A program made the position numbers and the translations under genes. A stretch of DNA of 49,161 bases from Chloroflexota bacterium. Its GTDB lineage: Bacteria; Chloroflexota; Anaerolineae; UBA4142; SHND01. The notes beneath the pieces were generated by a model. The model searched no databases. It was not told the origin of the DNA and saw nothing but the letters and a program-made list of their open reading frames with translations. The DNA lies in assembly GCA_029778615.1 (NCBI GenBank), contig JAKOPZ010000328.1, positions 1-49,161 of the forward strand, read 5' to 3'. This document shows positions 17,894 to 46,025 of the stretch, piece by piece (positions within the stretch are counted from its first letter, which is position 1; every line of letters begins with the position of its first letter).

Positions 17894-17938
17894 GGTGACA
17901 AGGTGACAAGGTGACTGTCACCCTGTCACCTTGTCACC
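17894..17938. repeat. GTGACAAG octamer array as a near-perfect hairpin between convergent genes
   Basis: Three direct octamers (17894-17915) face three inverted ones (17917-17938), one base apart and with one mismatch. The array lies between the fucosidase and protease stop codons and encodes the last residues of the protease (VGDKVTG and stop). It could act as a bidirectional terminator. Confidence 0.85.
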
Positions 17939-18760
17939 AACCACATTGGAAGCGCAAGCATAAAGCACGGTCTTTATCTGAAACGGCGTGAGTTCAGGAT
18001 GTTTGCTGCGAATCAATGTCGCAATCCCCGCAATGTGCGGCGCGGCAAAACTGTTGCCCGTCGTTGTCATCATGCTTTCGTCCGCCCAAGCGACAACCAC
18101 ATCAATCCCCGGCGCACCAAATTCTACCGGCGGTTCGGGATTGTAATAGTACGTGAAGGGGTCATGCCCTTCGTGCGCGGCGACAGAAATGACGGAAGAA
18201 TAGAGTGAGGGATAACTGGGCGCGGGAATGTTGTTCACCGCAGAGACGAGCAAGATATTTTTGAAATACGCTTCGTCAGCGAGTTCGTGAAAGAGCGCAT
18301 AGTATTCTTGTTTTGAAGTGGACAGCGAAAGATTCATTACGTGCATTCCGTTCTGAATTGCCCAACGCAAGCCGCCCGCAAATTGTAACCCGCGTCCCGT
18401 CGCGTCTTTGCCCAACACGCGCACGCTGTAAATTTCGGCGTCCGGCGCGAGTTTGTGAATGATGCCCGCGCACGCGGTGCCGTGTCCAAACAAATCGCGC
18501 GGTGTTGGGTCGTCGGAAATTCGTACACCCTCTTTGCGTCGTCCATCGTACTCGACAATCACCCCCCCCTTGACGCAATCGTCCAGCCACGGATGATTGT
18601 ATTCCACTCCCGAATCAATGACCGCGACGCGCATTCCTTGCCCCGTCGCGCCACCCCATGCCCATTCGCGCGAGATAGATGCAATCGGACCGAACGCGCG
18701 CAGTTCTCGGAGTACGTCGGAAGTGAATTGGTTAGAGTAGGCGGGTCGGAGTTCTGACAT
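17918..18760 (-). CDS. Subtilisin-like serine protease (S8), compact and without a signal peptide
   Basis: 280 residues. The catalytic triad is intact: Asp49 in VAVIDSGVEYNHP, His93 in GHGTACAGI and Ser237 in GNSFAAPHIAGIA, with the oxyanion Asn in VSAVNN. There is no signal peptide and no I9 propeptide, only about 40 residues before the Asp motif, so it looks intracellular or dependent on a partner. It is the last gene of the block starting with the GAF gene, 78 bases after the nSTAND-WD40 ATPase. In known systems STAND ATPases often activate an associated protease, so it may be the effector of its neighbour; it could alternatively process the repeat polypeptide encoded upstream. Both roles are inferred. 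Confidence 0.93.
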   Translation of the reverse strand: MSELRPAYSNQFTSDVLRELRAFGPIASISREWAWGGATGQGMRVAVIDSGVEYNHPWLDDCVKGGVIVEYDGRRKEGVRISDDPTPRDLFGHGTACAGIIHKLAPDAEIYSVRVLGKDATGRGLQFAGGLRWAIQNGMHVMNLSLSTSKQEYYALFHELADEAYFKNILLVSAVNNIPAPSYPSLYSSVISVAAHEGHDPFTYYYNPEPPVEFGAPGIDVVVAWADESMMTTTGNSFAAPHIAGIATLIRSKHPELTPFQIKTVLYACASNVVGDKVTG

Positions 18761-18842
18761 TGGGGGATGAGGGGGTGACAGGGTGACAAGGTGAAGGGGT
18801 GACAGAGCGAATTGTCACCTTGTCACCTTGTCACCTTGTCAT
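18761..18842. repeat. GTGACAAG octamer array between the protease and ATPase genes
   Basis: Direct units (18771-18803) and inverted units (18813-18840) flank GCGAAT. The array supplies the TGA stop of the ATPase gene and ends at the protease start. Confidence 0.85.
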
Positions 18843-21800
18843 GGGTTTTGACATTCAATCGTTTCGTGTAAAAACGTGACGCGTTCTTCGCAGGTTAGTT
18901 CGCGCGTAATGCGCGCATCCGCAAGTTTCAACAATTCGTCGAGCGGCGCGCACGCGATACATTCGTATAAACGCGCGGTCGTGTCGCCTGTGGTCACAAT
19001 CGTTTTGCCGTCGGGACTGAACGCCGCGTCGGTCACAATATCCGAATGTCCGCGCAAAATTTCGATGAGCTTGCCCGTTGCCGTTTCCCACACGCGCGCG
19101 GTCTTGTCATTACTCGCGGTGATGATGAATCGTCCGTCAGGGCTGAACGCGGCGCGCGTAATTTCGGCGGTGTGTCCTTTGAGTTCGTGCAAGAGGTTGC
19201 CCGAATTCGCATCCCACACGCGCGCCGATTTATCCAAACTCGCCGTCAGCACAAGTTTCCCATCAGGGCTAAAAACCATATCGTATATGTGTGCTGTATG
19301 CCCGCGCAGTTCTGCAATTTTCTGTCCGGTTGCTGCATCCCATACTGTCACAATGGAATGTCCCGCCGCCAGACTCGGGGCGCTCGCCCCTGCAACAAGT
19401 CGTCCATCGGGACTGTACGTGGCGGAGTAAAAAACTTGTCCGGCGTTTCTTAAAGATTGCACCTTCTCGCCGTTGGTGGTGTCGAAAACAGCAACGTGCG
19501 TCACATTGGCAGCGGCGACAATGTGCTTGGCATCCGCACTGTACGCAATCGTATAGGGAATATAGTCATTCTGAAATTGCGACTTGCCTACTGTCGTGTT
19601 TGCAAGCAGTGTTCCGTCTGGCACACTCCAAATCCGTATCCTCTGGTCTTCGCCGCCGGTTGTGACTGTTTTGCTGTCGGGGCTAAAGACTGCGGTAACT
19701 ATGTGACCGCTGTGCCCGCGCAATTCAGCAACCAAACTGCCGTCAGATGAATTCCAAATTCTCGCAATTCCGTCGTCGCCTGCCGTGACAATATACAAAC
19801 CGTTTGGACTGTATGCAATTGAATTGATTGCGCCCGTGTGTCCGCGTAATTCGAAAAGCGTTTTCCCCGTCGCAGTTTCCCACACGCGCGGGAGGCCATC
19901 TTTGCCTGCGGTTGCAACGCGCTTGCTGTCGGGACTGAACGCGGCTTGTTTTACAAAATCGGTATGACCTTCCAACGCTTCGCCCGGGTTCACATGCCAC
20001 AAGCGCGCGGTGCTATCATCGCTTGCAGTAATAATGGATTGTCCGTCAAGACTGAAATGCGCGGTGTTGACTGCCGCATTATGTCCATTCAAATCTTGAA
20101 GGGGTTCAAGAATTGCGTCTGTAGGCGCACTGCCAAGACCCTGGTCCAGTCTGGTTCCTGGAGCAACTTCGTTTCCCTTAAATTGCCACCATCGCGCGCT
20201 ATTGTCGCCGCCTACAGATACAGCATATTTTCCATCTGCACTGAATCTCGCATCTCTAATACCTCTACGGTGTCCAGGCAGATTGGCTTTATTGAATCCT
20301 GTAAATGCATCATAAACGCGCAAAGTTCCATCATCATTCCCCGTCAAAATGTATCTGCCAGATGGGCTGTACGCAAGTGAGCGGACTCCACTCGGCGTGT
20401 CCTTCAACTCGGCGATTTTATTCCCTGTTGCGAGTGACCAAATTGTTGGAGGTGCGGCGTTTCCTCCAGAAAGCGCAATGAACTGGCTATCGGGGCTAAA
20501 TTCCAAATCATGGGGATAAAGGTCTGGAATTTGTAAAATCAGCTCCCCCGTTTCGACATCCACAATAGAGAACCCGATAGTATCCGTACCAGCGACAAGA
20601 GAGCCATCAGGGCTAAATATGGCGACATTGAGTTTGGTTTTGTAATTGAATCGTTGAATTGGGTTGCCAGCCGCAGCATCCCAGATACGCGCAGTCGCAT
20701 CATCACTTGAGGTGAGGATATGTTTTCCATCGGGACTGAAATGCACATCGTTGATTTTATTTTCATGCCCGCGTAATTCGCTCACCAATTTGCCTGATGG
20801 AATTTCCCAGACGCGCGCCACTGTGTCCTCATCTCCCGTAACCAGGTAACGCCCATCGGAGGACAAATCAATTGCCCCCGTGCCGGTTTTCGGGGAAATG
20901 CTGGAAATGATGGTTCCGGTATCAGAGTTCAAAATACGAATCGGCGCACAGGTGACTGTGAGACCCGTCGAACGGTCACAGAGCTCCCACATAATGACAT
21001 ATTTTCCATCAGGGGTGATAAGCGCATCCAAGATGGGCGCGCCTCCTCCCTTGACTGTCCAACGATATGGATTAAGCAGCACCGTTCTCAACGCATCTTC
21101 CGCTTGTGTTGTCTGTGCGGTGTTCATCGCTTCGCGCGCGATGAGTAAGGCGCGTTCTGGGTCGGATTCAAGTTGTCCGAGCGACAGCGCGGCGAGTTCG
21201 CCGGAACGCGCGATTTTTTGTTGATTCACCGCGTCCGCTTTTGCCGCTTCCGCGTTCTTTTTTTCTTGCTCCGCCAATTCTTTTTGCGCGTTCGCGTCCG
21301 CTTGCGCTTTTTGCGCCGCGTCGCGTTGATTCAATGCTTCTGCTTTTTGTTGTTCGGCAAATGCCGACGCGCGTTCCGCCTCTTGCCGCTGTGTCAATGC
21401 AAACACCGCGAGCGCAATCACTCCGAGCAATAACAAACTCAAACCCACCAAACCAAAACGCAAACGTCGCACGCGGTTTTTTTCCGCAGCCAATTTTTTT
21501 TCGCTCTCGATTTTTTCTTGCTGCTGTGTAAAACGCGTGCGCCAATTTAAAATCGGCGCGCCCAACACATCATGGAAAATTTCGTAACGCGGTTCCGTCG
21601 GCTGATCCAACGGCGGCGCGACAGGACGCAAGATGCGGACATCCCCACTCGATAATTTTTCCAACGTCGCGGCAATTTCGTTTTGCGGCGCGTGCGCGTA
21701 ATTGGCGAGGTCGTGCGCCGTGTGCGCGATTTTTGTCCCCGACGGTGTGACAAGAAAATTGAAAATGTTCGCGGCGACGTGCTGTTCGTTTTCGGGCAGC

Positions 21801-22813
21801 GCACCCATCGTCGTATCCAAATGCGTCCGCACAATTTTTTCTGCGCCGCCCAAACGTTCAAGCGTTTCCAAGCGCAGCGTGTGCGAATCCGCGCGCATGG
21901 TTTCATCCCACAGACGCGTCATCACCAATTGCAAATACGGCGTTTCAATTTCATCGCCGCCCGCGCGTTCCACCGCGCCGCGTCCACTTTCACCAACAAT
22001 CACTTGTCCCGTGCGCGTTTGCTCCAACACCGCGTCCACGAGCGCGGGCTCGATTTCCACGCGACTGCCGTTCGCATAAAGCCGATTGTATTCGTCCAAC
22101 GGTTTCACAATCGCCTCGCGCGCCGCGTCGCGGTCGAGGTGTGCCATCCGCAAATAATTGTCAAATAAATTTGGAATGCGTCCTTTGAAACGGTCTAGTT
22201 TCGCCAAGGCATCTTCGCGAATTGCCAATAAAAAATTGACGCGCAAATCGTCGCGATTGAGCACACGCGCAAACTCGTCGGCAAACGAATGTTTGCCCGC
22301 AGACGAACCTGCGCCGCCGTCGTCGGGATGATACAAAAAATATTCTTCGAATTGGTCGAGGATGATATAGAGGTCGCCGCCGACGCGTTGGGCGTTGGTG
22401 TTCAGTGAGTCTGCGAGTGAAGGATGATGGGGTGATGGGGTGAGGGGGTGAACGGGTGCCGTAGAGACGTTTCGGTGAAACGTCTCCTCTCCTGATAACA
22501 ACGTTCGCGCAATTTCATCCTCCACGCGCGCGATGAGAGCTTGCACGGGGTCGTCGCGCCAACTGGAAAAAACGACGACGCCAAATTCGGGCGTGCCGCG
22601 TTCATTCAAATTACGCTGCGCGTCTTGACGCAGTTGATGCGCGATGCCCGCGCGCAACACAGAACTTTTTCCCACACCACTCGCGCCGTACAACAACGTG
22701 AGCCGCGAAACGTTCATGTTCGCAATGATGATGTCTTGCTCCGCCGCGCGTCCGAAAAAGAACGGGGCGTCAGATTCGGCGTAGGGCATGAGACCTTTGT
22801 AGGGAGAGTGCAT
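18839..22813 (-). CDS. nSTAND1 ATPase with transmembrane segment, coiled coil and about 16 WD40 repeats
   Basis: 1324 residues from ATG at 22813 (AGGAG upstream). The N-terminal SPYKGLMPYAESDAPFFFGR leads to Walker A YGASGVGKS (42-50) and a Walker B-like region LYIILDQFEEYF (148-159), the nSTAND1 arrangement. A single hydrophobic helix (about 455-480) is followed by an Ala/Glu/Lys-rich coiled coil (about 485-560). About 16 WD40 units (FSPDGK...ARVWD type) then form probably two propellers. STAND ATPases are signal sensors that oligomerise on ligand binding, and the WD40 part is the likely sensor. Residues about 107-131 are encoded by inserted repeat DNA between Walker A and Walker B. The protease downstream is a likely partner. 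Confidence 0.93.
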   Translation of the reverse strand: MHSPYKGLMPYAESDAPFFFGRAAEQDIIIANMNVSRLTLLYGASGVGKSSVLRAGIAHQLRQDAQRNLNERGTPEFGVVVFSSWRDDPVQALIARVEDEIARTLLSGEETFHRNVSTAPVHPLTPSPHHPSLADSLNTNAQRVGGDLYIILDQFEEYFLYHPDDGGAGSSAGKHSFADEFARVLNRDDLRVNFLLAIREDALAKLDRFKGRIPNLFDNYLRMAHLDRDAAREAIVKPLDEYNRLYANGSRVEIEPALVDAVLEQTRTGQVIVGESGRGAVERAGGDEIETPYLQLVMTRLWDETMRADSHTLRLETLERLGGAEKIVRTHLDTTMGALPENEQHVAANIFNFLVTPSGTKIAHTAHDLANYAHAPQNEIAATLEKLSSGDVRILRPVAPPLDQPTEPRYEIFHDVLGAPILNWRTRFTQQQEKIESEKKLAAEKNRVRRLRFGLVGLSLLLLGVIALAVFALTQRQEAERASAFAEQQKAEALNQRDAAQKAQADANAQKELAEQEKKNAEAAKADAVNQQKIARSGELAALSLGQLESDPERALLIAREAMNTAQTTQAEDALRTVLLNPYRWTVKGGGAPILDALITPDGKYVIMWELCDRSTGLTVTCAPIRILNSDTGTIISSISPKTGTGAIDLSSDGRYLVTGDEDTVARVWEIPSGKLVSELRGHENKINDVHFSPDGKHILTSSDDATARIWDAAAGNPIQRFNYKTKLNVAIFSPDGSLVAGTDTIGFSIVDVETGELILQIPDLYPHDLEFSPDSQFIALSGGNAAPPTIWSLATGNKIAELKDTPSGVRSLAYSPSGRYILTGNDDGTLRVYDAFTGFNKANLPGHRRGIRDARFSADGKYAVSVGGDNSARWWQFKGNEVAPGTRLDQGLGSAPTDAILEPLQDLNGHNAAVNTAHFSLDGQSIITASDDSTARLWHVNPGEALEGHTDFVKQAAFSPDSKRVATAGKDGLPRVWETATGKTLFELRGHTGAINSIAYSPNGLYIVTAGDDGIARIWNSSDGSLVAELRGHSGHIVTAVFSPDSKTVTTGGEDQRIRIWSVPDGTLLANTTVGKSQFQNDYIPYTIAYSADAKHIVAAANVTHVAVFDTTNGEKVQSLRNAGQVFYSATYSPDGRLVAGASAPSLAAGHSIVTVWDAATGQKIAELRGHTAHIYDMVFSPDGKLVLTASLDKSARVWDANSGNLLHELKGHTAEITRAAFSPDGRFIITASNDKTARVWETATGKLIEILRGHSDIVTDAAFSPDGKTIVTTGDTTARLYECIACAPLDELLKLADARITRELTCEERVTFLHETIECQNP
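22421..22486. repeat. Repeat insertion inside the ATPase coding region (octamer tract plus palindrome)
   Basis: A GATGGGGT/GAGGGGGT octamer tract (22421-22455) adjoins a perfect palindrome GAGACGTTTC-GGT-GAAACGTCTC (22464-22486). Both are read in frame as a Pro/His-rich loop in the ATPase domain. The palindrome resembles small dispersed repeats I recall from cyanobacterial genomes. Confidence 0.8.
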
Positions 22814-22823
22814 GTTTGAACTC

Positions 22824-22880
22824 CTGACAGGGTAACAAGGGACAAGGGACAAGGTGACAGGGTGACAAGGTGATTGTGAT
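22824..22880. repeat. GTGACAAG octamer array between ATPase and four-helix genes
   Basis: Degenerate to exact units (GGTAACAAG, GGACAAGG, GGTGACAGG, GGTGACAAG) run in one orientation between the ATPase start and the four-helix-bundle stop codon. Confidence 0.8.
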
Positions 22881-23273: not shown

Positions 23274-23337
23274 TGAATTTTCCTCTCTTGTGTCACGTAC
23301 CGTCGCATTAGAGAATGCTCCTTACGCGTTACGAAAT

Positions 23338-23389
23338 GTCACCCTGTCACCCTGTCACCCTGTCACCCCATCACCCCCTCACCCTCTCC
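23338..23389. repeat. CCTGTCAC octamer array overlapping the end of the cyclase-SIR2 gene
   Basis: At least four exact CCTGTCAC units, decaying to CCCATCAC and CCCCTCAC, run into the coding end, where they encode the last residues (VRG) and the TGA stop of the cyclase-SIR2 gene. Confidence 0.85.
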
Positions 23390-24855
23390 TCCAACATCCC
23401 CACATACTCTTCCAACTTTACATTCAGACTTTCCACATCGCGCTTGCGCCAAAATTCTTGTTCCAATACATCTGGTTTCGCGCCGACCGCCCACGACTTG
23501 TACGTCAAACGCTGCTGCCCCCACAAACGATGCAAAATCACGCGCAAATACCAATCCCGTAACGAATACCCCAAAAACAAAAAATGACTCTTGCGTAATT
23601 TTGCCGCCAGCGTCACGGGAATCAAACTCGAAATATCGCCGCGCGCGAGATAATCAATGTAATGGTCTTCGGTAATCACAAAACTGTCCCACTCGGAACT
23701 CTCGCGGTCCACTGCGCCGTGCAATTTCAAAATGATGCAGCGCGGGTCGGCGGCGAGACCGCGATATTCGTTCGGGCGTTCAATCAACGTCGCGTTCCCA
23801 TCGGGCGTGCGATGCAAAAATTTTCCGCGCGCTTCGCCTTCGGCAACATACGTGACCAAATCAAATTCTTCATTCGCCGCGCGAAACGCGCGTTCGAGTG
23901 CGTCGTCGTAATTGGTTGTGACAAATAAAAGCGCGCGCGGTGAGAAATTTTTCGCGCGCAAGAGCGCGGGGAGCTGCGCGAGGAATTGGTGCAGCGCGGT
24001 CGGCGCGTAGTCGGCGTCGAGGAGTGCGTGCATTTCGTCGTACAACGGACCCGTTCCCGTCACGAGCGAAACGTACTGCGAAACATGCACGAGGTCACGC
24101 GGCGCGTTCGGGGGATAATTGAAATTTTGCGCGAGATGTTCCGCGAGTTCCGCGCCATGCGGCAAAACTTCGGCGTGATGATTTTCCCAAATCGCGCCCG
24201 ACAGCCGTCCAAACAAATTGACGCCTTCGCCTAAAAAAATGACGAGCCGATTTTCGCTCAACGCTTTCACCACCGCGTCGAGATGCGCGTCGAGCGCATC
24301 CAAGCCTTTGAGCGGCGGAAAATCCGATTTCAAATCGAGCGCGACAATTTGAAAAACATGTTCGGGCTTTTTCAAATCTTTCAGGCGAATCGCGCCGAGG
24401 TCGCGCAAACTCACCCCATTCGGCAAATCATTTTGTGCCGCATCAAACGTTTCTTGCGTGAGAATAATTTGCCCGCCGTATCCCGCCGCGCCCACGCGCG
24501 CTGCGCGATGTACGTCCACGCCAACGTAACGTTCATTGCTGACGACCGGCGCGCCGGTGTGCAAACCCATTCGCACGCGCACTTGAACATTTTGCGCCCA
24601 CGCGTGATTGAGAAGCGCGCGTTGTGCGTCCACTGCCGCCGTGAGCGCATCGGGCGCATTCGCAAAAGCATAAAAAAACGAATCGCCCTGATTGTCCACC
24701 TCAACGCCGTTGCGCGCCGCGAACGCGGAACGAAGCAATTGCTTTTGGTCATTCAACACCAACGCATATTCCGCGCCGAGTTGATGTAACAATTGCGTCG
24801 AACCTTCAATGTCGGTAAAGAGAAAGGTGACAGTGCCGGTTGGAAGTGTAGGCAT
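23371..24855 (-). CDS. Class III nucleotidyl cyclase fused to a SIR2-like domain
   Basis: 494 residues from ATG at 24855. Residues about 7-172 are a class III cyclase: metal Asp15 in FLFTDIEGST, Asp58 in QGDSFFYAF, and the transition-state Arg120 in VDVHRAARV, where the usual Asn is His116. Residues about 200-490 are SIR2-like: GEGVN (209-213) in the glycine-loop position, TTNYDD (313-318), KLHG with catalytic-type His379, and FLGYSLRDW (427-435). SIR2-like domains of this branch are often NAD-consuming defence effectors; cyclases make cyclic nucleotides. The fusion could couple a second messenger to NAD cleavage. Whether both halves are active is unknown. It sits between the GAF and four-helix genes. 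Confidence 0.9.
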   Translation of the reverse strand: MPTLPTGTVTFLFTDIEGSTQLLHQLGAEYALVLNDQKQLLRSAFAARNGVEVDNQGDSFFYAFANAPDALTAAVDAQRALLNHAWAQNVQVRVRMGLHTGAPVVSNERYVGVDVHRAARVGAAGYGGQIILTQETFDAAQNDLPNGVSLRDLGAIRLKDLKKPEHVFQIVALDLKSDFPPLKGLDALDAHLDAVVKALSENRLVIFLGEGVNLFGRLSGAIWENHHAEVLPHGAELAEHLAQNFNYPPNAPRDLVHVSQYVSLVTGTGPLYDEMHALLDADYAPTALHQFLAQLPALLRAKNFSPRALLFVTTNYDDALERAFRAANEEFDLVTYVAEGEARGKFLHRTPDGNATLIERPNEYRGLAADPRCIILKLHGAVDRESSEWDSFVITEDHYIDYLARGDISSLIPVTLAAKLRKSHFLFLGYSLRDWYLRVILHRLWGQQRLTYKSWAVGAKPDVLEQEFWRKRDVESLNVKLEEYVGMLEERVRG

Positions 24856-24875
24856 AATGCGTGCCGGAATGGCAG

Positions 24876-24927
24876 GGTGACAAGGTGACAGGGTGACGGT
24901 CACCTTGTCACCTTGTCACCTGTCACC
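24876..24927. repeat. GTGACAAG octamer hairpin between GAF and cyclase genes
   Basis: Units at 24876-24897 and their near-perfect complement at 24899-24920 are one base apart. The inverted half supplies the last residues (GDR) and TGA stop of the GAF gene. Confidence 0.85.
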
Positions 24928-25668
24928 ACTATATTCCCCAAACGCTTGCAAAATTTTCAAACACAACGCGCGTTCGCGTTCGCCGAGCGATGCGATTTCT
25001 TGAAACACGCGCGCAATTTCCATCACGTCGTCATGACGCAGTGCGTCATTGTGTTCCATCGCGCGTTGTATGTCCACTGCGGCTTCGGGGGAAACGAGCG
25101 CGCGTAAATTTTCAACAAGCGCGTGATTTAACTCGTCGAGATGTTCGGATTGATGAATCGCAATCGCCGCCTGACGCGCAAACATGCCGAGCAGTTCCAT
25201 GTCCTGCATTCCGAACGACGGCGCGCTGATTTTGTCCAACACTTCCATTACGCCGATGACGCGGTCATCCACAATCAATGGCATGGCGAGAATGGACTTG
25301 GGAACGTATCCGGTTTTTTCTGCCGTGTCGCGCGCAAAACGTTTGTCACTCTGAACGTTGGAAACCGCGATTGGTTGTCCCGTGTTGGCGACGTAACCGG
25401 CAACGCCTTGGTCGAGCCCGATGCGCATGCCAACCACAGTTTCGCTACCGACACCATACGCAACGCGAAAGACGAGTTGCCCCGCGCGTTCATCCACGAG
25501 CGCGATAGAAGAAGCCGCTGCGCCGAAAATGCGCGCGGCGGCTTCGACAATGGTTTGCAAGAGTTCGTCGTTGGATGAAGGCAAGAGCGCGCGTCCGGTG
25601 GCTTGAATGGCGAGGAGCCATTGTTGCAATTGCGCGGCGAGAGGATTGGAAGAAGTTGTATTGTCCAT
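24916..25668 (-). CDS. GAF domain sensor protein
   Basis: 250 residues. A GAF domain spans about 30-178: LQTIVEAAARIFGAAASSIALVD, GLDQGVAGYVANTGQPIAVSNV and MPLIVDDRVIGVMEVLDK, followed by an F...D...LL end that resembles the NKFDE-type element of cyclic-nucleotide GAF domains. The C-terminal 70 residues are helical with no output domain recognised. It is probably a small-molecule sensor working in trans on the cyclase-SIR2 protein encoded 60 bases downstream. A terminator separates it from the repeat-polypeptide gene upstream, so it needs its own promoter, which I could not identify. Confidence 0.88.
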   Translation of the reverse strand: MDNTTSSNPLAAQLQQWLLAIQATGRALLPSSNDELLQTIVEAAARIFGAAASSIALVDERAGQLVFRVAYGVGSETVVGMRIGLDQGVAGYVANTGQPIAVSNVQSDKRFARDTAEKTGYVPKSILAMPLIVDDRVIGVMEVLDKISAPSFGMQDMELLGMFARQAAIAIHQSEHLDELNHALVENLRALVSPEAAVDIQRAMEHNDALRHDDVMEIARVFQEIASLGERERALCLKILQAFGEYSGDR

Positions 25669-25773: not shown

Positions 25774-26364
25774 CTATGCCGAAATCGCTTCTGTGACTTT
25801 GTAGCCGCCCGTGGTCGGGTCGAATTCGAGTTGTTGATTGAGGGCTGCGGCTTGCACTTGAGTTGCTTTGGTCGCGCGACGGGGTTTGATTGCGCCGGTC
25901 ATTTGATGAGCAGCCACTTCGGCTCCGCCTTTGACAGCTTTGATAGCTTTGACCGAGCCGGTGGTCATCTGATGCGCCGCGACATCGGCTTCGCCTTTGA
26001 CGGCTTTGATGGCTTTGACCGAGCCGGTGGTCATTTGATGGGCTGCCACTTCCGCCGCGCCCTTGACAGCTTTGATGGCTTTGACCGAACCGGTGGTCAT
26101 CTGATGCGCCGCGACTTCGGCTCCGCCTTTGACGGCTTTGATGGCTTTGACCGAGCCGGTGGTCATCTGATGCGCCGCCACATCGGCTTCGCCTTTGACG
26201 GCTTTGATGGCTTTGACCGAGCCGGTGGTCATTTGATGCGCTGCCACCTCTTCGCCCAAAATCAACTTGTCCAGCAAGTTGCGTTCATCTTTGGAAAGGG
26301 TCGCCCGCATTGCCGAAAGTTTTTTCACGAGGCGTTTGAAGGCGGTGCGTTCTTTGTCTGTCAT
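25774..26364 (-). CDS. Cationic tandem-repeat polypeptide (five 22-residue units); possible multi-core peptide precursor
   Basis: 196 residues. A charged helical leader (1-38, ending in NLLDKLILGE) is followed by five 22-residue units (39-148), each reading VAAHQMTTGSVKAIKAVKG with an acidic residue before and a variable EA, GA or AA after. A degenerate sixth unit and a tail containing FDPTTGGYKV follow. Each unit holds four Lys in a 12-residue stretch and an acidic spacer. I do not recognise a family. It could be a polyprotein that releases cationic peptides, or a repeat fold. No RiPP-modifying enzyme is nearby. AGGAGG lies before the ATG. Upstream is a CRP-type promoter shared with two neighbours; downstream is a terminator. 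Confidence 0.85.
   Translation of the reverse strand: MTDKERTAFKRLVKKLSAMRATLSKDERNLLDKLILGEEVAAHQMTTGSVKAIKAVKGEADVAAHQMTTGSVKAIKAVKGGAEVAAHQMTTGSVKAIKAVKGAAEVAAHQMTTGSVKAIKAVKGEADVAAHQMTTGSVKAIKAVKGGAEVAAHQMTGAIKPRRATKATQVQAAALNQQLEFDPTTGGYKVTEAISA
25900..26250 (-). repeat. 66-bp tandem repeat coding for the polypeptide units
   Basis: Five complete 66-bp units (25921-26250) and part of a sixth. Units differ mostly at third codon positions, while the protein is constant except at the unit junction, which points to selection on the peptide. The unit-ending pairs run EA, GA, AA, EA, GA, suggesting a three-unit duplication step. Confidence 0.9.
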
Positions 26365-26414: not shown

Positions 26415-26457
26415 ATTGTATCGGAATTCAATACGAATGTCTGTCATCTAGATGACA
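26415..26457 (-). promoter_or_regulatory. Class II CRP-type promoter of the repeat-polypeptide gene
   Basis: A perfect 16-bp palindrome TGTCATCTAGATGACA (26442-26457) is centred 34.5 bases from the downstream edge of a TACAAT -10 box (26415-26420). No -35 box is evident, as expected where an activator replaces it. The same geometry occurs before two neighbouring genes. Confidence 0.75.
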
Positions 26458-26477
26458 CAAACAAACCTGTTGCCAAA

Positions 26478-26900
26478 TTACTTTGCCAAACCGCCGCGTC
26501 GTAAACCGGGGTCAAGATATTCGCTCGCGGGCGCGCTCAACGTTTGATTCACATTGCGGTCAAAATAACGCGCGTTCCATTCGTCACTGTGCGCTTTCCA
26601 ATCTGTCTTGCGAGCAATCGGTTTCGCCGCCGCATGCAGTCCCGCCAATCCGCCGCGCAACGGTCCGCGCGATGCGCTCTCGAAATAGAATGGCAGCTCG
26701 GTAGCGACATTGCGATTGAAATAGAAATCGCTCCAGGCGTCGGAATGCGCTTTGAGAACAGGACGCGGACGAATCGGCGCATTGCCCAATTCTTGTTTCA
26801 ATTCCTTGCCGGGTTCGTTGGGCGCTGCGAGCAACATTGTTGGGAGTGTGAGCAACATCAGGGCGAACGTGGCGGCGAGTGCAAGTTTGTACGTTTTCAT
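26478..26900 (-). CDS. Small secreted protein with a duplicated KAHSD-W-YF-RNV motif
   Basis: 140 residues from ATG at 26900 with GGAGG upstream. A clear signal peptide (MKTYKLALAATFALMLLTLP, cleavage near LLAA) is followed by a mature part of about 115 residues that contains KAHSDAWSDFYFNRNV and later KAHSDEWNARYFDRNV, each followed by a Gly/Leu/Arg-rich segment (GLRRGGLAK at the end). I do not recognise a family. It is expressed from a CRP-type promoter like its neighbours, so it may act with the repeat polypeptide, for example as a surface or immunity component. That role is inferred only. Confidence 0.8.
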   Translation of the reverse strand: MKTYKLALAATFALMLLTLPTMLLAAPNEPGKELKQELGNAPIRPRPVLKAHSDAWSDFYFNRNVATELPFYFESASRGPLRGGLAGLHAAAKPIARKTDWKAHSDEWNARYFDRNVNQTLSAPASEYLDPGLRRGGLAK

Positions 26901-26956
26901 GGCGAACCTCCTTGAACGAATCGGCGGAAAGTTCCGCACTAACCGATTACGTTAAT

Positions 26957-26999
26957 AGAATAACACGCCATGTGCTGTGCGTCTGTCAGATACGTGACA
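26957..26999 (-). promoter_or_regulatory. Class II CRP-type promoter of the secreted-protein gene
   Basis: TGTCAGATACGTGACA (26984-26999) is centred 34.5 bases from the downstream edge of TATTCT (26957-26962), the same arrangement as at 26415-26457. Confidence 0.7.
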
Positions 27000-27015
27000 C
27001 AACGAAAAAATTGTT

Positions 27016-28785
27016 TTACGTTGGCGCGGGTTCCACACGCAGCTCGCGCAAAGTCGCCTGGTCGAAACCGGCAAAGCGCGGCAAATCGTTAAGGTTGGTG
27101 CGCGACAAACGTTCGTAAAATTTCACGCGCACAATTTGGCTGATGCCTGGATACGTCATCAAGTGGCGCAAAGTCTGCGCGGGCACTTGGAGCAGCGTCG
27201 TCGGTTCTTGCGCCAAAACGTTCGCGGTGCGCGGTTGTCCCGAGAGCGCGGCAATTTCACCAAAGAAATCGCCCTCGCCCATCGTTTCCAGCCAACGCGT
27301 TCCGCCGCCTTCCTCCACACCCGCAATTGCACTGCCCTGCATCACAATAAACGCGGCATCACTCGTTTCGCCAAAGCGCACAATTGTCGAACCTGCGGGC
27401 GCGTACAAAACAGTCGAATGCGTCGCAAGCATTTGACGGTCAGTGGGACTCAATGCGGCGAGCGCGCCAAAACGCAGTGCGAGCGCGTCAATGTCTGCGG
27501 GCGTTGCCAAACGCAGGACTTGGGCGGCGGGCGCGGTCGGCGCGGTCCGCAGCAATTGAATGACTTGCTTCCACTGCGCTGCCGGTTGTCCGAGTCCGGG
27601 GAGAAACAGCACGAGAATGCCCGGGACCAGTATCATCAACGCCGCGATGAAAAACAATTCGCGCACGCCCGTCAGGTCCGCCAGTCCCGTCAAGCCCATA
27701 CCGATTAAAAACGAAACATCGCGCGTGACAAAGAAAACGCTCGCGACGCGCCCGCGCATTTCGCGCGGCGTGTTGCGCTGCAAAATCAATTGCCGCGCCA
27801 CCACCGACGGCGCGTTCATAAATCCCGAAAGCGTCACAAAGAAAAAAGCGAGCGTCACCGACGACAGCTGCGAATACACAATCTGCGCCAGACCCATGCC
27901 GACAAAGCTGATGGTCAACCATTGTCCGGCGGGCAGCCGGTCCGCATAGCGCGCCATCAACAAACTCGACAGCACAAAGCCGAGCGAGGTCAGCCCTTCT
28001 TGAATACCGTACTCGAATTCCGTCGCGTGCAGTGCGCGCGTGGCAAAGGGGAGCAGCAGCGCGTTCGTCAATCCAAAACTGATGCCCATGATGGGCAAGA
28101 GCGTGTACGACGAACGCAAAATTTGCGAGCCGAACAAAAAACGAAAGCCGCTTTGCATGTTGCGAAAAATCGTCACCACACGCGTTGCGCCTTCTGCTTG
28201 CACCGACGGCACGCGCGTAAAAAATATACAGCCCGCCGAAAACAAAAACGTCAGGGCGTCGAGATAAAACGCGATATCGAGTGAAATTTGCGCGAGCAGC
28301 CCCGACGCCGCAAAGCCCACCGCCGTTGCGCCGAACGAGCTGATTGCCATCAACGAATTCGCCGCCGCCAGTTCTTCATCCGACGCGATTTCCGGCAGCA
28401 CGGATGCCTGCGCCGGTTCAAAAAATTGTCCAACGCAGCTGGTCAACAACACAATCACGTACAGCCACACCACATTCGACGTGACGAGAAACGGAATCGT
28501 AACCACCAACGCCGCGCGCACAATATCGGCAATCAACATGATGCGCTTGCGGTCCACGCGGTCCACAAACACGCCCGCAATCAAGCCCAACACAATGCTC
28601 GGCGCGGCAGTCGCCATCAACATCAAGCCGACGGACAACGCGGAACCGGTCGCGCGATAAACGAGAATCGAAGCGGCGAGCGAAGTCAACGCGCTGCCCA
28701 CCGTCGAGACGAGCTGCGCCGTCCAGAGCAGCGTAAAGTTGCGATTGCGGAACACCGCAAACGGAGAAATCGGAGCGCTGTGCAT
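27016..28785 (-). CDS. MFS transporter fused to a C-terminal cyclic-nucleotide-binding domain
   Basis: 589 residues from ATG at 28785. The first 410 or so residues are a 12-helix MFS exporter of the MFS_3/enterobactin-exporter kind (FAVFRNRNFTLLWTAQLVSTVGSAL, then LGLIAGVFVDRVDRKRIM). Residues about 430-560 are a cNMP-binding domain with GEGDFFGEIAALSGQPRTANVLA, which retains the phosphate-binding Glu and Arg of the cassette. A ligand-gated exporter is suggested. The gene starts just after the terminator of the STAS gene, so expression may need readthrough. Its substrate is unknown; the neighbouring peptide is a candidate by proximity only. Confidence 0.9.
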   Translation of the reverse strand: MHSAPISPFAVFRNRNFTLLWTAQLVSTVGSALTSLAASILVYRATGSALSVGLMLMATAAPSIVLGLIAGVFVDRVDRKRIMLIADIVRAALVVTIPFLVTSNVVWLYVIVLLTSCVGQFFEPAQASVLPEIASDEELAAANSLMAISSFGATAVGFAASGLLAQISLDIAFYLDALTFLFSAGCIFFTRVPSVQAEGATRVVTIFRNMQSGFRFLFGSQILRSSYTLLPIMGISFGLTNALLLPFATRALHATEFEYGIQEGLTSLGFVLSSLLMARYADRLPAGQWLTISFVGMGLAQIVYSQLSSVTLAFFFVTLSGFMNAPSVVARQLILQRNTPREMRGRVASVFFVTRDVSFLIGMGLTGLADLTGVRELFFIAALMILVPGILVLFLPGLGQPAAQWKQVIQLLRTAPTAPAAQVLRLATPADIDALALRFGALAALSPTDRQMLATHSTVLYAPAGSTIVRFGETSDAAFIVMQGSAIAGVEEGGGTRWLETMGEGDFFGEIAALSGQPRTANVLAQEPTTLLQVPAQTLRHLMTYPGISQIVRVKFYERLSRTNLNDLPRFAGFDQATLRELRVEPAPT

Positions 28786-28835
28786 AAACAAAAAGCCCCT
28801 CTTTTGAAATCTCGTTTGAAAATTCAAAAGAGGGG
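28786..28835 (-). terminator. Intrinsic terminator between STAS and MFS genes
   Basis: On the minus strand a perfect 13-bp stem (28796-28808 with 28823-28835, core CCCCTCTTTTGAA) is followed by CTTTTTG. It ends about ten bases before the MFS start codon and occupies the place of its ribosome site. Confidence 0.85.
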
Positions 28836-28853
28836 ACCCGGGTGCAGAACGAA

Positions 28854-29189
28854 TTAAAAACTCGTCGCGGCGGCGTCACGCGTCGGAAAGATTTTAAACA
28901 GCTTGTCCAAGCCCACGAGCTTGAGCGAGTCGAGCAAATAATCGGATGCGCCCGCGAGTCGCAAATCGCCGTTCTTGTCCTGGACCGCGAGGCGCGCGCT
29001 CAATAACGCGCGCATTCCCGCGCTGGACATGAACGTCGTGTCGCTCAAATCCACCACCAATTTGTAATGTTTTGCTTTGATGGCATTCTGAAGCGCTTCG
29101 TCCAATTGCGGCGCGGTGAATCCGTCCACCCGTCCGTTCACGGAAATGACTTGCGTGTTGCCTTGCGTTTCGGTATTGACTGTGAGCAT
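28854..29189 (-). CDS. STAS domain protein (anti-sigma factor antagonist type)
   Basis: 111 residues. The whole protein is one STAS domain: VISVNGRVDGFTAPQLDEAL, LVVDLSDTTFMSSAGMRALL and LKLVGLDKLFKIFP. The SSAG serine pair is at the site phosphorylated by anti-sigma kinases in SpoIIAA/RsbV relatives. Such proteins free a sigma factor or regulate a phosphatase/kinase switch. GAGGAGG lies before the ATG. It is transcribed from a CRP-type promoter and is followed by a terminator and the MFS gene. No anti-sigma kinase is seen in the window. Confidence 0.92.
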   Translation of the reverse strand: MLTVNTETQGNTQVISVNGRVDGFTAPQLDEALQNAIKAKHYKLVVDLSDTTFMSSAGMRALLSARLAVQDKNGDLRLAGASDYLLDSLKLVGLDKLFKIFPTRDAAATSF

Positions 29190-29218
29190 AAGTTTGCCTC
29201 CTCATAGAGTACACACGC

Positions 29219-29261
29219 ACTGTACTGCATTATCGAAAAAATGTCTGTCACTTGCGCGACA
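29219..29261 (-). promoter_or_regulatory. Class II CRP-type promoter of the STAS gene
   Basis: TGTCACTTGCGCGACA (29246-29261) is centred 34.5 bases from the downstream edge of TACAGT (29219-29224), matching the two sites before the peptide and secreted-protein genes. It lies between the STAS gene and the CRP-family gene. Confidence 0.7.
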
Positions 29262-29313: not shown

Positions 29314-30003
29314 TCAAACTTGCGCGATGCGCCGCAAGGATGCGCGGTCCAAAATGACCAGTTTGCCGCGTCCGGTAAGAATCCAACCCGCGCGCCGCCA
29401 TTGTCCCAAAATTTTCGCGGTCGTCTGCCGCGCCACGCCGATATGCTGTGCGAGTTCATCTTGCGAGAGCGTGATAAAGCCCTTGTCGCTCGCCGCGCGG
29501 TCGAGGTCCAACAACACGCGCGCCAAGCGCGACGGCGCATCGAGAAACGCCAACGCGCGTTCGCGTTCGGTGCTGGCGCGCAAACGCTGCGCGGTGATTT
29601 CCAAAATTTGACGCATCAAGCGCGGCTGCCGCTCCAGCTCGGCCAAAAATTCCGCACGCGGCAAACGAATCACTTCGGTATCCAGCTGCGCCATTGCCGA
29701 TGCCGAACGCGGCGAATCTGTGAGCAGTGCCAGTTCGCCGAGACACTCGCCGGCGCGCAATTCGTTAATCACCAGCTCGCGTCCGTCGGTGGTAGTCAGG
29801 ACAATTGCCAACGCGCCCGCACGAATGACAAACGCCGCATCCCCTTCATCGTCTTGATAAAAGAGATAACTGTGACGCGGAATCCGTTTCAGGTGCGCCA
29901 CGCGCGCAAACACTGCCAGCGCGGCATCATCCACTTTTTGAAAGAGGGGAATGCGGCGCAGTAGATTCATCAATTCGGCGGGGGCAAGGCGTGACTCGGG
30001 CAT
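29314..30003 (-). CDS. CRP/FNR family transcription regulator
   Basis: 229 residues from ATG at 30003. Residues about 12-130 form a cNMP-binding domain with GECLGELALLTDSPRSASAMA, keeping the Glu and Arg-Ser of cAMP-binding members; no FNR-type cysteine cluster is present. Residues about 165-225 are a winged helix with LSQDELAQHIGVARQTTAKILGQWRRAGWI. In the recognition helix the E. coli CRP motif RETxxR is RQTxxK, which fits a site that differs from TGTGA. It is adjacent to the STAS gene promoter bearing a TGTCA-N6-CGACA site, so it is the likely regulator of the three CRP-type promoters here. Confidence 0.93.
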   Translation of the reverse strand: MPESRLAPAELMNLLRRIPLFQKVDDAALAVFARVAHLKRIPRHSYLFYQDDEGDAAFVIRAGALAIVLTTTDGRELVINELRAGECLGELALLTDSPRSASAMAQLDTEVIRLPRAEFLAELERQPRLMRQILEITAQRLRASTERERALAFLDAPSRLARVLLDLDRAASDKGFITLSQDELAQHIGVARQTTAKILGQWRRAGWILTGRGKLVILDRASLRRIAQV

Positions 30004-45866: not shown

Positions 45867-46017
45867 TCGAGATTAGAGACTAGAGACTGGAGACTGGAGA
45901 TTGACGTTTGACGTTTCACGTTTGACGTTTGACGTTTCACGTTTGACGTTTGACGTTTCACGTTTGACGTTTGACGTTTGACGTTTGACGTTTGACGTTT
46001 GACGTTTGACGTTTCAC
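45867..46017. repeat. Heptamer arrays TAGAGAC/TGGAGAC and CGTTTGA/CGTTTCA
   Basis: A short array of 7-bp units (GATTAGAGACTAGAGACTGG, 45867-45900) leads into some 16 units of CGTTTGA or CGTTTCA (45903-46017), the longest perfect short tandem array in the window, filling the whole gap between two genes. Confidence 0.92.
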
Positions 46018-46025
46018 GCACCGCA

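Follow-up and report, generated by a model that had tools for sequence, protein, structure and literature searches.

At the class II promoters of E. coli CRP, of which galP1 is an example, a 16-bp palindrome centred at -41.5 lies over the -35 element, and the activator carries a cAMP-type pocket and pairs the half-site TGTGA with residues R180, E181 and R185. Base contacts have been assigned to these same side chains, Arg180, Glu181 and Arg185 (PMC12531629). Two other members of the family work with a different half-site. The operator consensus of CooA is TGTCGGCNNGCCGACA (PMC545781), and CooA of Rhodospirillum rubrum and two CooA-1 structures all have an RQT recognition helix (1FT9, 2FMY, 2HKX). 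Cmr (Rv1675c) of M. tuberculosis binds TGTCAGCGTGCTGACA experimentally (PMC5499769). Because CooA and Cmr have like operators, the operator type that we describe below is already known. Here we analyse three promoters in a stretch of 49,161 nucleotides (the window, meaning the whole stretch of DNA that was analysed), together with their counterparts in related genomes. The sequence comparisons make it likely that the three sites are class II promoters at which the adjacent CRP-family regulator acts as an activator, in response to a cyclic nucleotide from a kinase-cyclase pair.

Three promoters with a common geometry

The window contains TGTC-N8-GACA palindromes at 26442-26457, 26984-26999 and 29246-29261, with no further copy in its 49 kb, and all three lie upstream of minus-strand genes (for a repeat protein, a small secreted protein and a STAS-domain protein). 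The promoter elements are as follows.

26442-26457, minus strand: operator 1, the perfect palindrome TGTCATCTAGATGACA
26438-26443, minus strand: -35 hexamer CAGACA of promoter 1, with a 17-bp spacer to TACAAT, also present in the output of a generic sigma-70 scan
26415-26420, minus strand: -10 hexamer TACAAT of promoter 1
26984-26999, minus strand: operator 2, TGTCACGTATCTGACA as read on the gene strand
26980-26985, minus strand: -35 hexamer CAGACG of promoter 2
26957-26962, minus strand: -10 hexamer TATTCT of promoter 2
29246-29261, minus strand: operator 3, TGTCGCGCAAGTGACA as read on the gene strand, centred at -41.5; sites preceding STAS genes also occur in genomes G005 and G002
29242-29247, minus strand: -35 hexamer CAGACA of promoter 3, overlapping the operator by 2 bp
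29219-29224, minus strand: -10 hexamer TACAGT of promoter 3

A preliminary description of this DNA had reported three sites of identical geometry upstream of the repeat-peptide, secreted-protein and STAS genes, and both the positions and the distances check exactly: the palindrome centre stands 34.5 bases from the -10 edge in every case (26449.5-26415, 26991.5-26957 and 29253.5-29219). The third palindrome departs from TGTCA-N6-TGACA by one mismatch. The flanks had also been said to be shared, and this is true in part, in that GTC precedes the palindrome on the plus strand in all three, whereas the AC said to follow it does not hold up, only the C being common there (caa, caa, ctt). The GAC flank extends the palindrome to GACAGACA, and because the second GACA of this extended element ends the -35 hexamer (xxGACA), the operator runs from -49 to -34 and shares two bases with the -35. 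The spacer between the -35 and the -10 is 17 bp at the window promoters (CAGACA, CAGACG and CAGACA, respectively), and the generic sigma-70 scan alone recovers one of the three (CAGACA-17-TACAAT, 26443-26415). The predicted start points, 26408, 26950 and 29212 on the minus strand, lie 44 nt from the start codon of the repeat-protein gene, 50 nt from that of the secreted-protein gene and 23 nt from that of the STAS gene, and the predicted +1 base is G rather than A at two of the three promoters.

A collection of 23 sites, drawn from the window genome and from related ones, shows the same design. The -10 box stands at offset 21 in 21 of these sites and at offset 22 in the other two (G130 and G085), which supports the class II geometry that had been proposed. 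In 16 of the 23, the predicted +1, seven bases beyond the -10, is A. The bases GACAGAC are kept in 22 or 23 of the sites. Within the -35 element the GAC of the second GACA is likewise kept in 22-23 and the final A in 19, and most of the sites have TG ahead of the palindrome.

The same regulator might use the same sites for repression: occupying -49 to -34, it would lie over the upstream end of the -35 and keep polymerase out. The 2-bp overlap between operator and -35 and the good -10 hexamers (TACAAT, TAGAAT, TATACT) are consistent with such a role, and Cmr of M. tuberculosis uses a palindrome of this kind and represses at dosR (PMC5499769). Against this, the spacing is exact in 21 of the 23 sites, as with activator-like contact to polymerase, while the sites of repressors usually wander; moreover, the -35 elements lack TT. 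A -35 without TT is common among activator-dependent promoters. We infer activation here and regard repression as unlikely.

The neighbouring regulator and its pairing with the sites

The putative activator is encoded next to the third promoter.

29314-30003, minus strand: CRP-family regulator of 229 aa with a cNMP-binding domain, a Crp HTH and the helix RQTTAK (Pfam)

Both of its domains score above cut-off (PF00027, 79 bits; PF13545, 62 bits). It has kept a complete cyclic-nucleotide phosphate cassette, GELALLTDSPRS, with the Glu for ribose (E90) and the Arg-Ser/Thr pair for the phosphate (R99 and S100), and the cassette E and R-[S/T] are retained in 15 of 15 orthologues. The recognition helix had been described as changed to RQTxxK and does indeed read R-Q-T-T-A-K, the position of E. 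coli CRP Glu181 being occupied by Gln (Q193). Orthologues are present in 12 other genomes at 44-78% identity, all with RQT, and R-Q-T is found in every one of the 15 sequences (eight within the order, the window regulator included, and seven in other families); the helix reads RE or RV in eight remoter CRP proteins of the class (E about 1e-48 to 1e-33). A search of genome contigs with the regulator alignment returned just two remote proteins. The idea that RQT suits TGTC and not TGTG gains support from CooA, in which the same helix goes with the TGTC-type consensus given above (PMC545781), and from searches with the composite pattern, by which we mean the palindrome together with a -10 box at the fixed distance. 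A version of this composite with the E. coli-type half-site (TGTG/CACA) gave 0 matches in 20 genomes of the order, and the operator is for this reason specifically TGTC.

Sites and regulator occur together. Our order-level searches covered these 20 genomes and our class-level searches 396, and in the latter set an exact composite is present in 8 of the 13 genomes with a regulator orthologue versus 5 of the 383 without one (Fisher p about 1e-10). In seven genomes from four families outside the order, a site follows closely on the regulator and precedes the gene for a relative of the repeat protein. Directly 3' of the regulator gene it is exact in G220, G175 and G071, has one mismatch in G302 and G288, and has an 18-bp spacer in G130 and G085. 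This co-occurrence over 396 genomes and the adjacency in several families, which like the spacing and the domain make-up are read directly from the sequences, agree with the earlier pairing of the sites with the adjacent CRP-family gene. G016 has the regulator, and no site was found in the surroundings retrieved.

The sites might instead belong to a different member of the CRP/FNR family or to some unrelated factor, in which case the adjacent regulator would be incidental. Such a reading could accommodate G003, where an exact site precedes a kinase-cyclase pair and an RQT regulator was looked for and none found, as well as G349, in which an exact site stands ahead of a different CRP-family gene with an RPT helix. 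Exact sites without a clear tie to the window regulator are present in four genomes outside the order, G349, G388, G253 and G251. The co-occurrence and direct adjacency just described tell against another factor, as does the fact that the sole other full-length relative found in the window genome has the unrelated helix NLYSVSR. We consider the involvement of another factor improbable. The RPT protein of G349 (L165, 3043-3802), whose gene has an exact composite directly ahead of it, may possibly be an autoregulated relative with the same operator, judging from this arrangement.

That the regulator is itself a CooA-type CO sensor is very improbable, even though its RQT helix is identical to that of CooA (1FT9, 2FMY, 2HKX) and its operator near-identical to the CooA consensus (PMC545781). 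A CooA identity was rejected in view of the intact cyclic-nucleotide cassette and the lack of a gene for a CooS-type CO dehydrogenase, TIGR01702 being without a match in the genome, which is about 95% complete. Furthermore, CooA is absent from the best 60 full-length PDB matches.

Frequency of the sites in the window, the genome and its relatives

The palindrome by itself is just modestly unusual, because the three copies of TGTC-N8-GACA in the window compare with a mean of 0.67 under a first-order Markov model and 12 of 300 simulations reach three. The palindrome with TANNNT at the stated distance gives four matches (the three sites and site 1 reversed) against a mean of 0.003, with a maximum of 1 across 300 simulations of the Markov model. 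A loose search of the window for TGTCA-N6-TGACA with two mismatches permitted found 16 where 16 were expected, which is chance, and the significance of the sites therefore rests on their being near-perfect, on their placement and on their conservation.

Genome-wide tests consisted of pattern searches with a reversed-pattern control. The scan of the whole genome that the preliminary description had put forward came out in its favour: the strict composite TGTCR-N6-YGACA-N21-TANNNT matches no other place in the 6.0-Mb genome, the fourth row returned being site 1 in reverse. Across the 20 order genomes, a search for TGTCR-N6-YGACAGAC with no condition on the -10 returned 17 rows, representing 16 distinct sites (one was read on both strands), and the reversed control gave at most 4 matches. 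TANNNT stands at offset 21 in 15 of these 16 sites (binomial p about 1e-24). The full composite has 15 exact matches in the same genomes and 0 with the reversed pattern. Outside the order, composite and control are near-equal in the 396-genome set (8 matches versus 7). The notion that chance palindromes happen to lie by chance -10 boxes, to which the result with two mismatches (no commoner than in shuffles) might lend itself, is refuted by the 15 versus 0 matches of the composite, by the offset-21 test and by the same genes standing behind it in other families, and is hardly credible.

Genes behind the promoters

The genes that the promoters precede, and others in the window that bear on them, are listed here.

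25774-26364, minus strand: repeat protein, with N-terminal KKLSALRATLSxxERxLLDxxV followed by 22-aa repeats with EVAAHQMT
26478-26900, minus strand: small secreted-type protein with a signal-peptide-like N-terminus and two KAHSDxW repeats (from the translation)
28854-29189, minus strand: STAS-domain, anti-sigma-factor-antagonist-like protein (Pfam STAS and TIGR00377, above cut-off)
27016-28785, minus strand: MFS transporter with a C-terminal cNMP-binding domain, 3' of the STAS gene (Pfam MFS_1 and PF00027)
24916-25668, minus strand: GAF-domain protein, 3' of the repeat protein (Pfam GAF), in the same order in other families
23371-24864, minus strand: class III nucleotide cyclase with a SIR2-like domain (Pfam PF00211 and PF13289)
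17918-18760, minus strand: S8 (subtilisin-like) peptidase (Pfam PF00082), directly 3' of the GAF gene in other genomes

In 11 other genomes (12 with the window), a relative of the repeat protein is encoded behind the site, the members of the family being window 25774-26364, L063, L064, L120, L123 and L158-L164. The window gene contains a 66-bp tandem repeat at 25897-26247. Across the family of small proteins the N-terminal segment is conserved, the tandem repeats on E-V-x-[AG]-H are lineage-specific (EVAAHQMT, EVEGHVMK, EVEAHQLK), and two members are repeat-free. The window protein matched no Pfam or NCBIfam family, and a literature search for the E-V-x-[GA]-H motif returned nothing relevant. 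No Pfam, NCBIfam or PADLOC family was found for the small KAHSDxW protein, and none of the regulon genes was assigned to a defence system by PADLOC. The S8 peptidases that follow the GAF gene in other genomes are 69-73% identical to their relative in the window.

Several other features of the window are recorded here as observations. The stretch from the STAS stop codon to the MFS start codon contains, as read on the minus strand, an inverted repeat CCCCTCTTTTGAA...TTCAAAAGAGGGG followed by CTTTTTGTTT (28797-28838); it was spotted by eye, the generic scan not having reported it, and is possibly a terminator or attenuator. The fusion of cyclase and SIR2-like domain at 23371-24864 is an uncommon pairing, with a weak and remote likeness to ThsA in PADLOC. 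Tandem repeats of 8 bp and TGTCACC type, at 18812-18841, 22825-22873, 23337-23385 and 24899-24927, lie close to where the WD40, 23S-IVP and cyclase-SIR2 genes meet and present TGTCA half-sites as direct repeats. The WD40 gene (18839-22852) encodes an nSTAND1 NTPase of 1337 aa with a WD40 propeller. A 7-bp tandem repeat, TTGACGT, is present in 17 copies at 45901-46018.

A kinase-cyclase operon and a proposed circuit

Four genomes (G302, G175, G071 and G288) share one arrangement, which starts with a giant multi-GAF hybrid histidine kinase and a response-regulator nucleotide cyclase. One more regulatory protein comes next (a SpoIIE-type phosphatase that binds cNMP in the case of G302), and then the regulator, the site and the repeat protein, which in G302 and G071 is followed by the GAF protein and the S8 peptidase. 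The response-regulator cyclase combines Pfam PF00072 and PF00211, and these kinase-cyclase pairs, in which a response regulator is fused to a class III cyclase, are 62-86% identical across families. Their loci include the following.

L128, 7397-8419 and 8416 onward: kinase-cyclase pair
L094, 7170-13228: kinase-cyclase pair
L127: kinase-cyclase pair
L159, 691-7454: kinase-cyclase pair

The window genome has its kinase and cyclase on contig C7, the cyclase being 86% identical to its G005 counterpart, behind a fourth promoter that reads CGTCACCTACGCGACA-GACA...TAAAAT. This site (C7:21270-21312) has one mismatch and was accepted because the equivalent operon of G005 has an exact site; so does that of G003. 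Of the other one-mismatch sites in the genome, the one at C169:5349 stays a candidate and reads TGTCTTGAATGTGACA-GTC, with a perfect TATAAT; the remainder were dropped, being without a GAC flank or a good -10.

We propose that the giant multi-GAF hybrid histidine kinase would take in a signal and control the response-regulator cyclase, which would make a cyclic nucleotide that probably switches on the CRP-family regulator. The most likely ligand is cAMP, a preference held on general grounds. A dimer of the regulator would bind TGTCR-N6-YGACA at -41.5, on the upstream edge of the -35 (xxGACA), and so activate sigma-70-type transcription from a start seven bases past the -10. In this genus the kinase-cyclase operon would itself be among the targets, and the copy of the promoter in front of it leads us to predict a circuit that reinforces itself. 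Because the design recurs beside the same regulator in related families and is wired to a two-component-controlled cyclase, promoter design, regulator and kinase-cyclase pair probably constitute a real and undescribed signalling circuit. A more specific possibility, which we think doubtful, would make of the circuit a dedicated cyclic-nucleotide pathway with a repeat peptide of a new kind as its conserved main output. The N-terminal segment of this small protein would be leader-like, its tandem repeats, built on an E-V-x-x-H motif, are lineage-specific, and the co-encoded S8 peptidase would cut it into several products.

Comparison with known CRP-family systems

We found no description of the RQT CRP subfamily or its regulon in the literature searched. 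The subfamily now gains a predicted operator, a predicted input (the kinase and response-regulator cyclase) and predicted outputs, all of which can be tested in vitro. The change of specificity to TGTC is already known from CooA. Here, outside the CooA lineage, Gln for Glu in the recognition helix again goes with TGTC for TGTG, and this pairing bears on the recognition code of the large CRP family. Each of the families examined has such a promoter ahead of the small repeat protein, a protein with no described function and a clear target for study.

The promoters resemble those of the E. coli CRP class II type in having a 16-bp operator at -41.5 that overlaps the -35, and the regulator resembles CRP in its cAMP-type pocket; the promoters differ in that the operator is TGTC, with R-Q-T, here. 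The nearest full-length bacterial regulators in the PDB are those of mycobacterial Crp (Rv3676; 3I54, 3D0S; E about 1e-24), in which, however, the alignment gives the helix as RETVNK rather than RQT. Cmr is also a CRP-family protein with an operator of the same type, but it responds to redox and NO via cysteines, represses dosR and is distant in sequence (E about 1e-12). CooA (Rhodospirillum rubrum, Carboxydothermus, Desulfovibrio) is a CRP-family activator that shares the RQT helix and the TGTC/GACA operator; in contrast to the regulator described here, which has a cyclic-nucleotide cassette and other targets, it is a haem CO sensor over CO dehydrogenase genes. These comparisons suggest a regulator that would work like CRP, with CooA-like DNA specificity.
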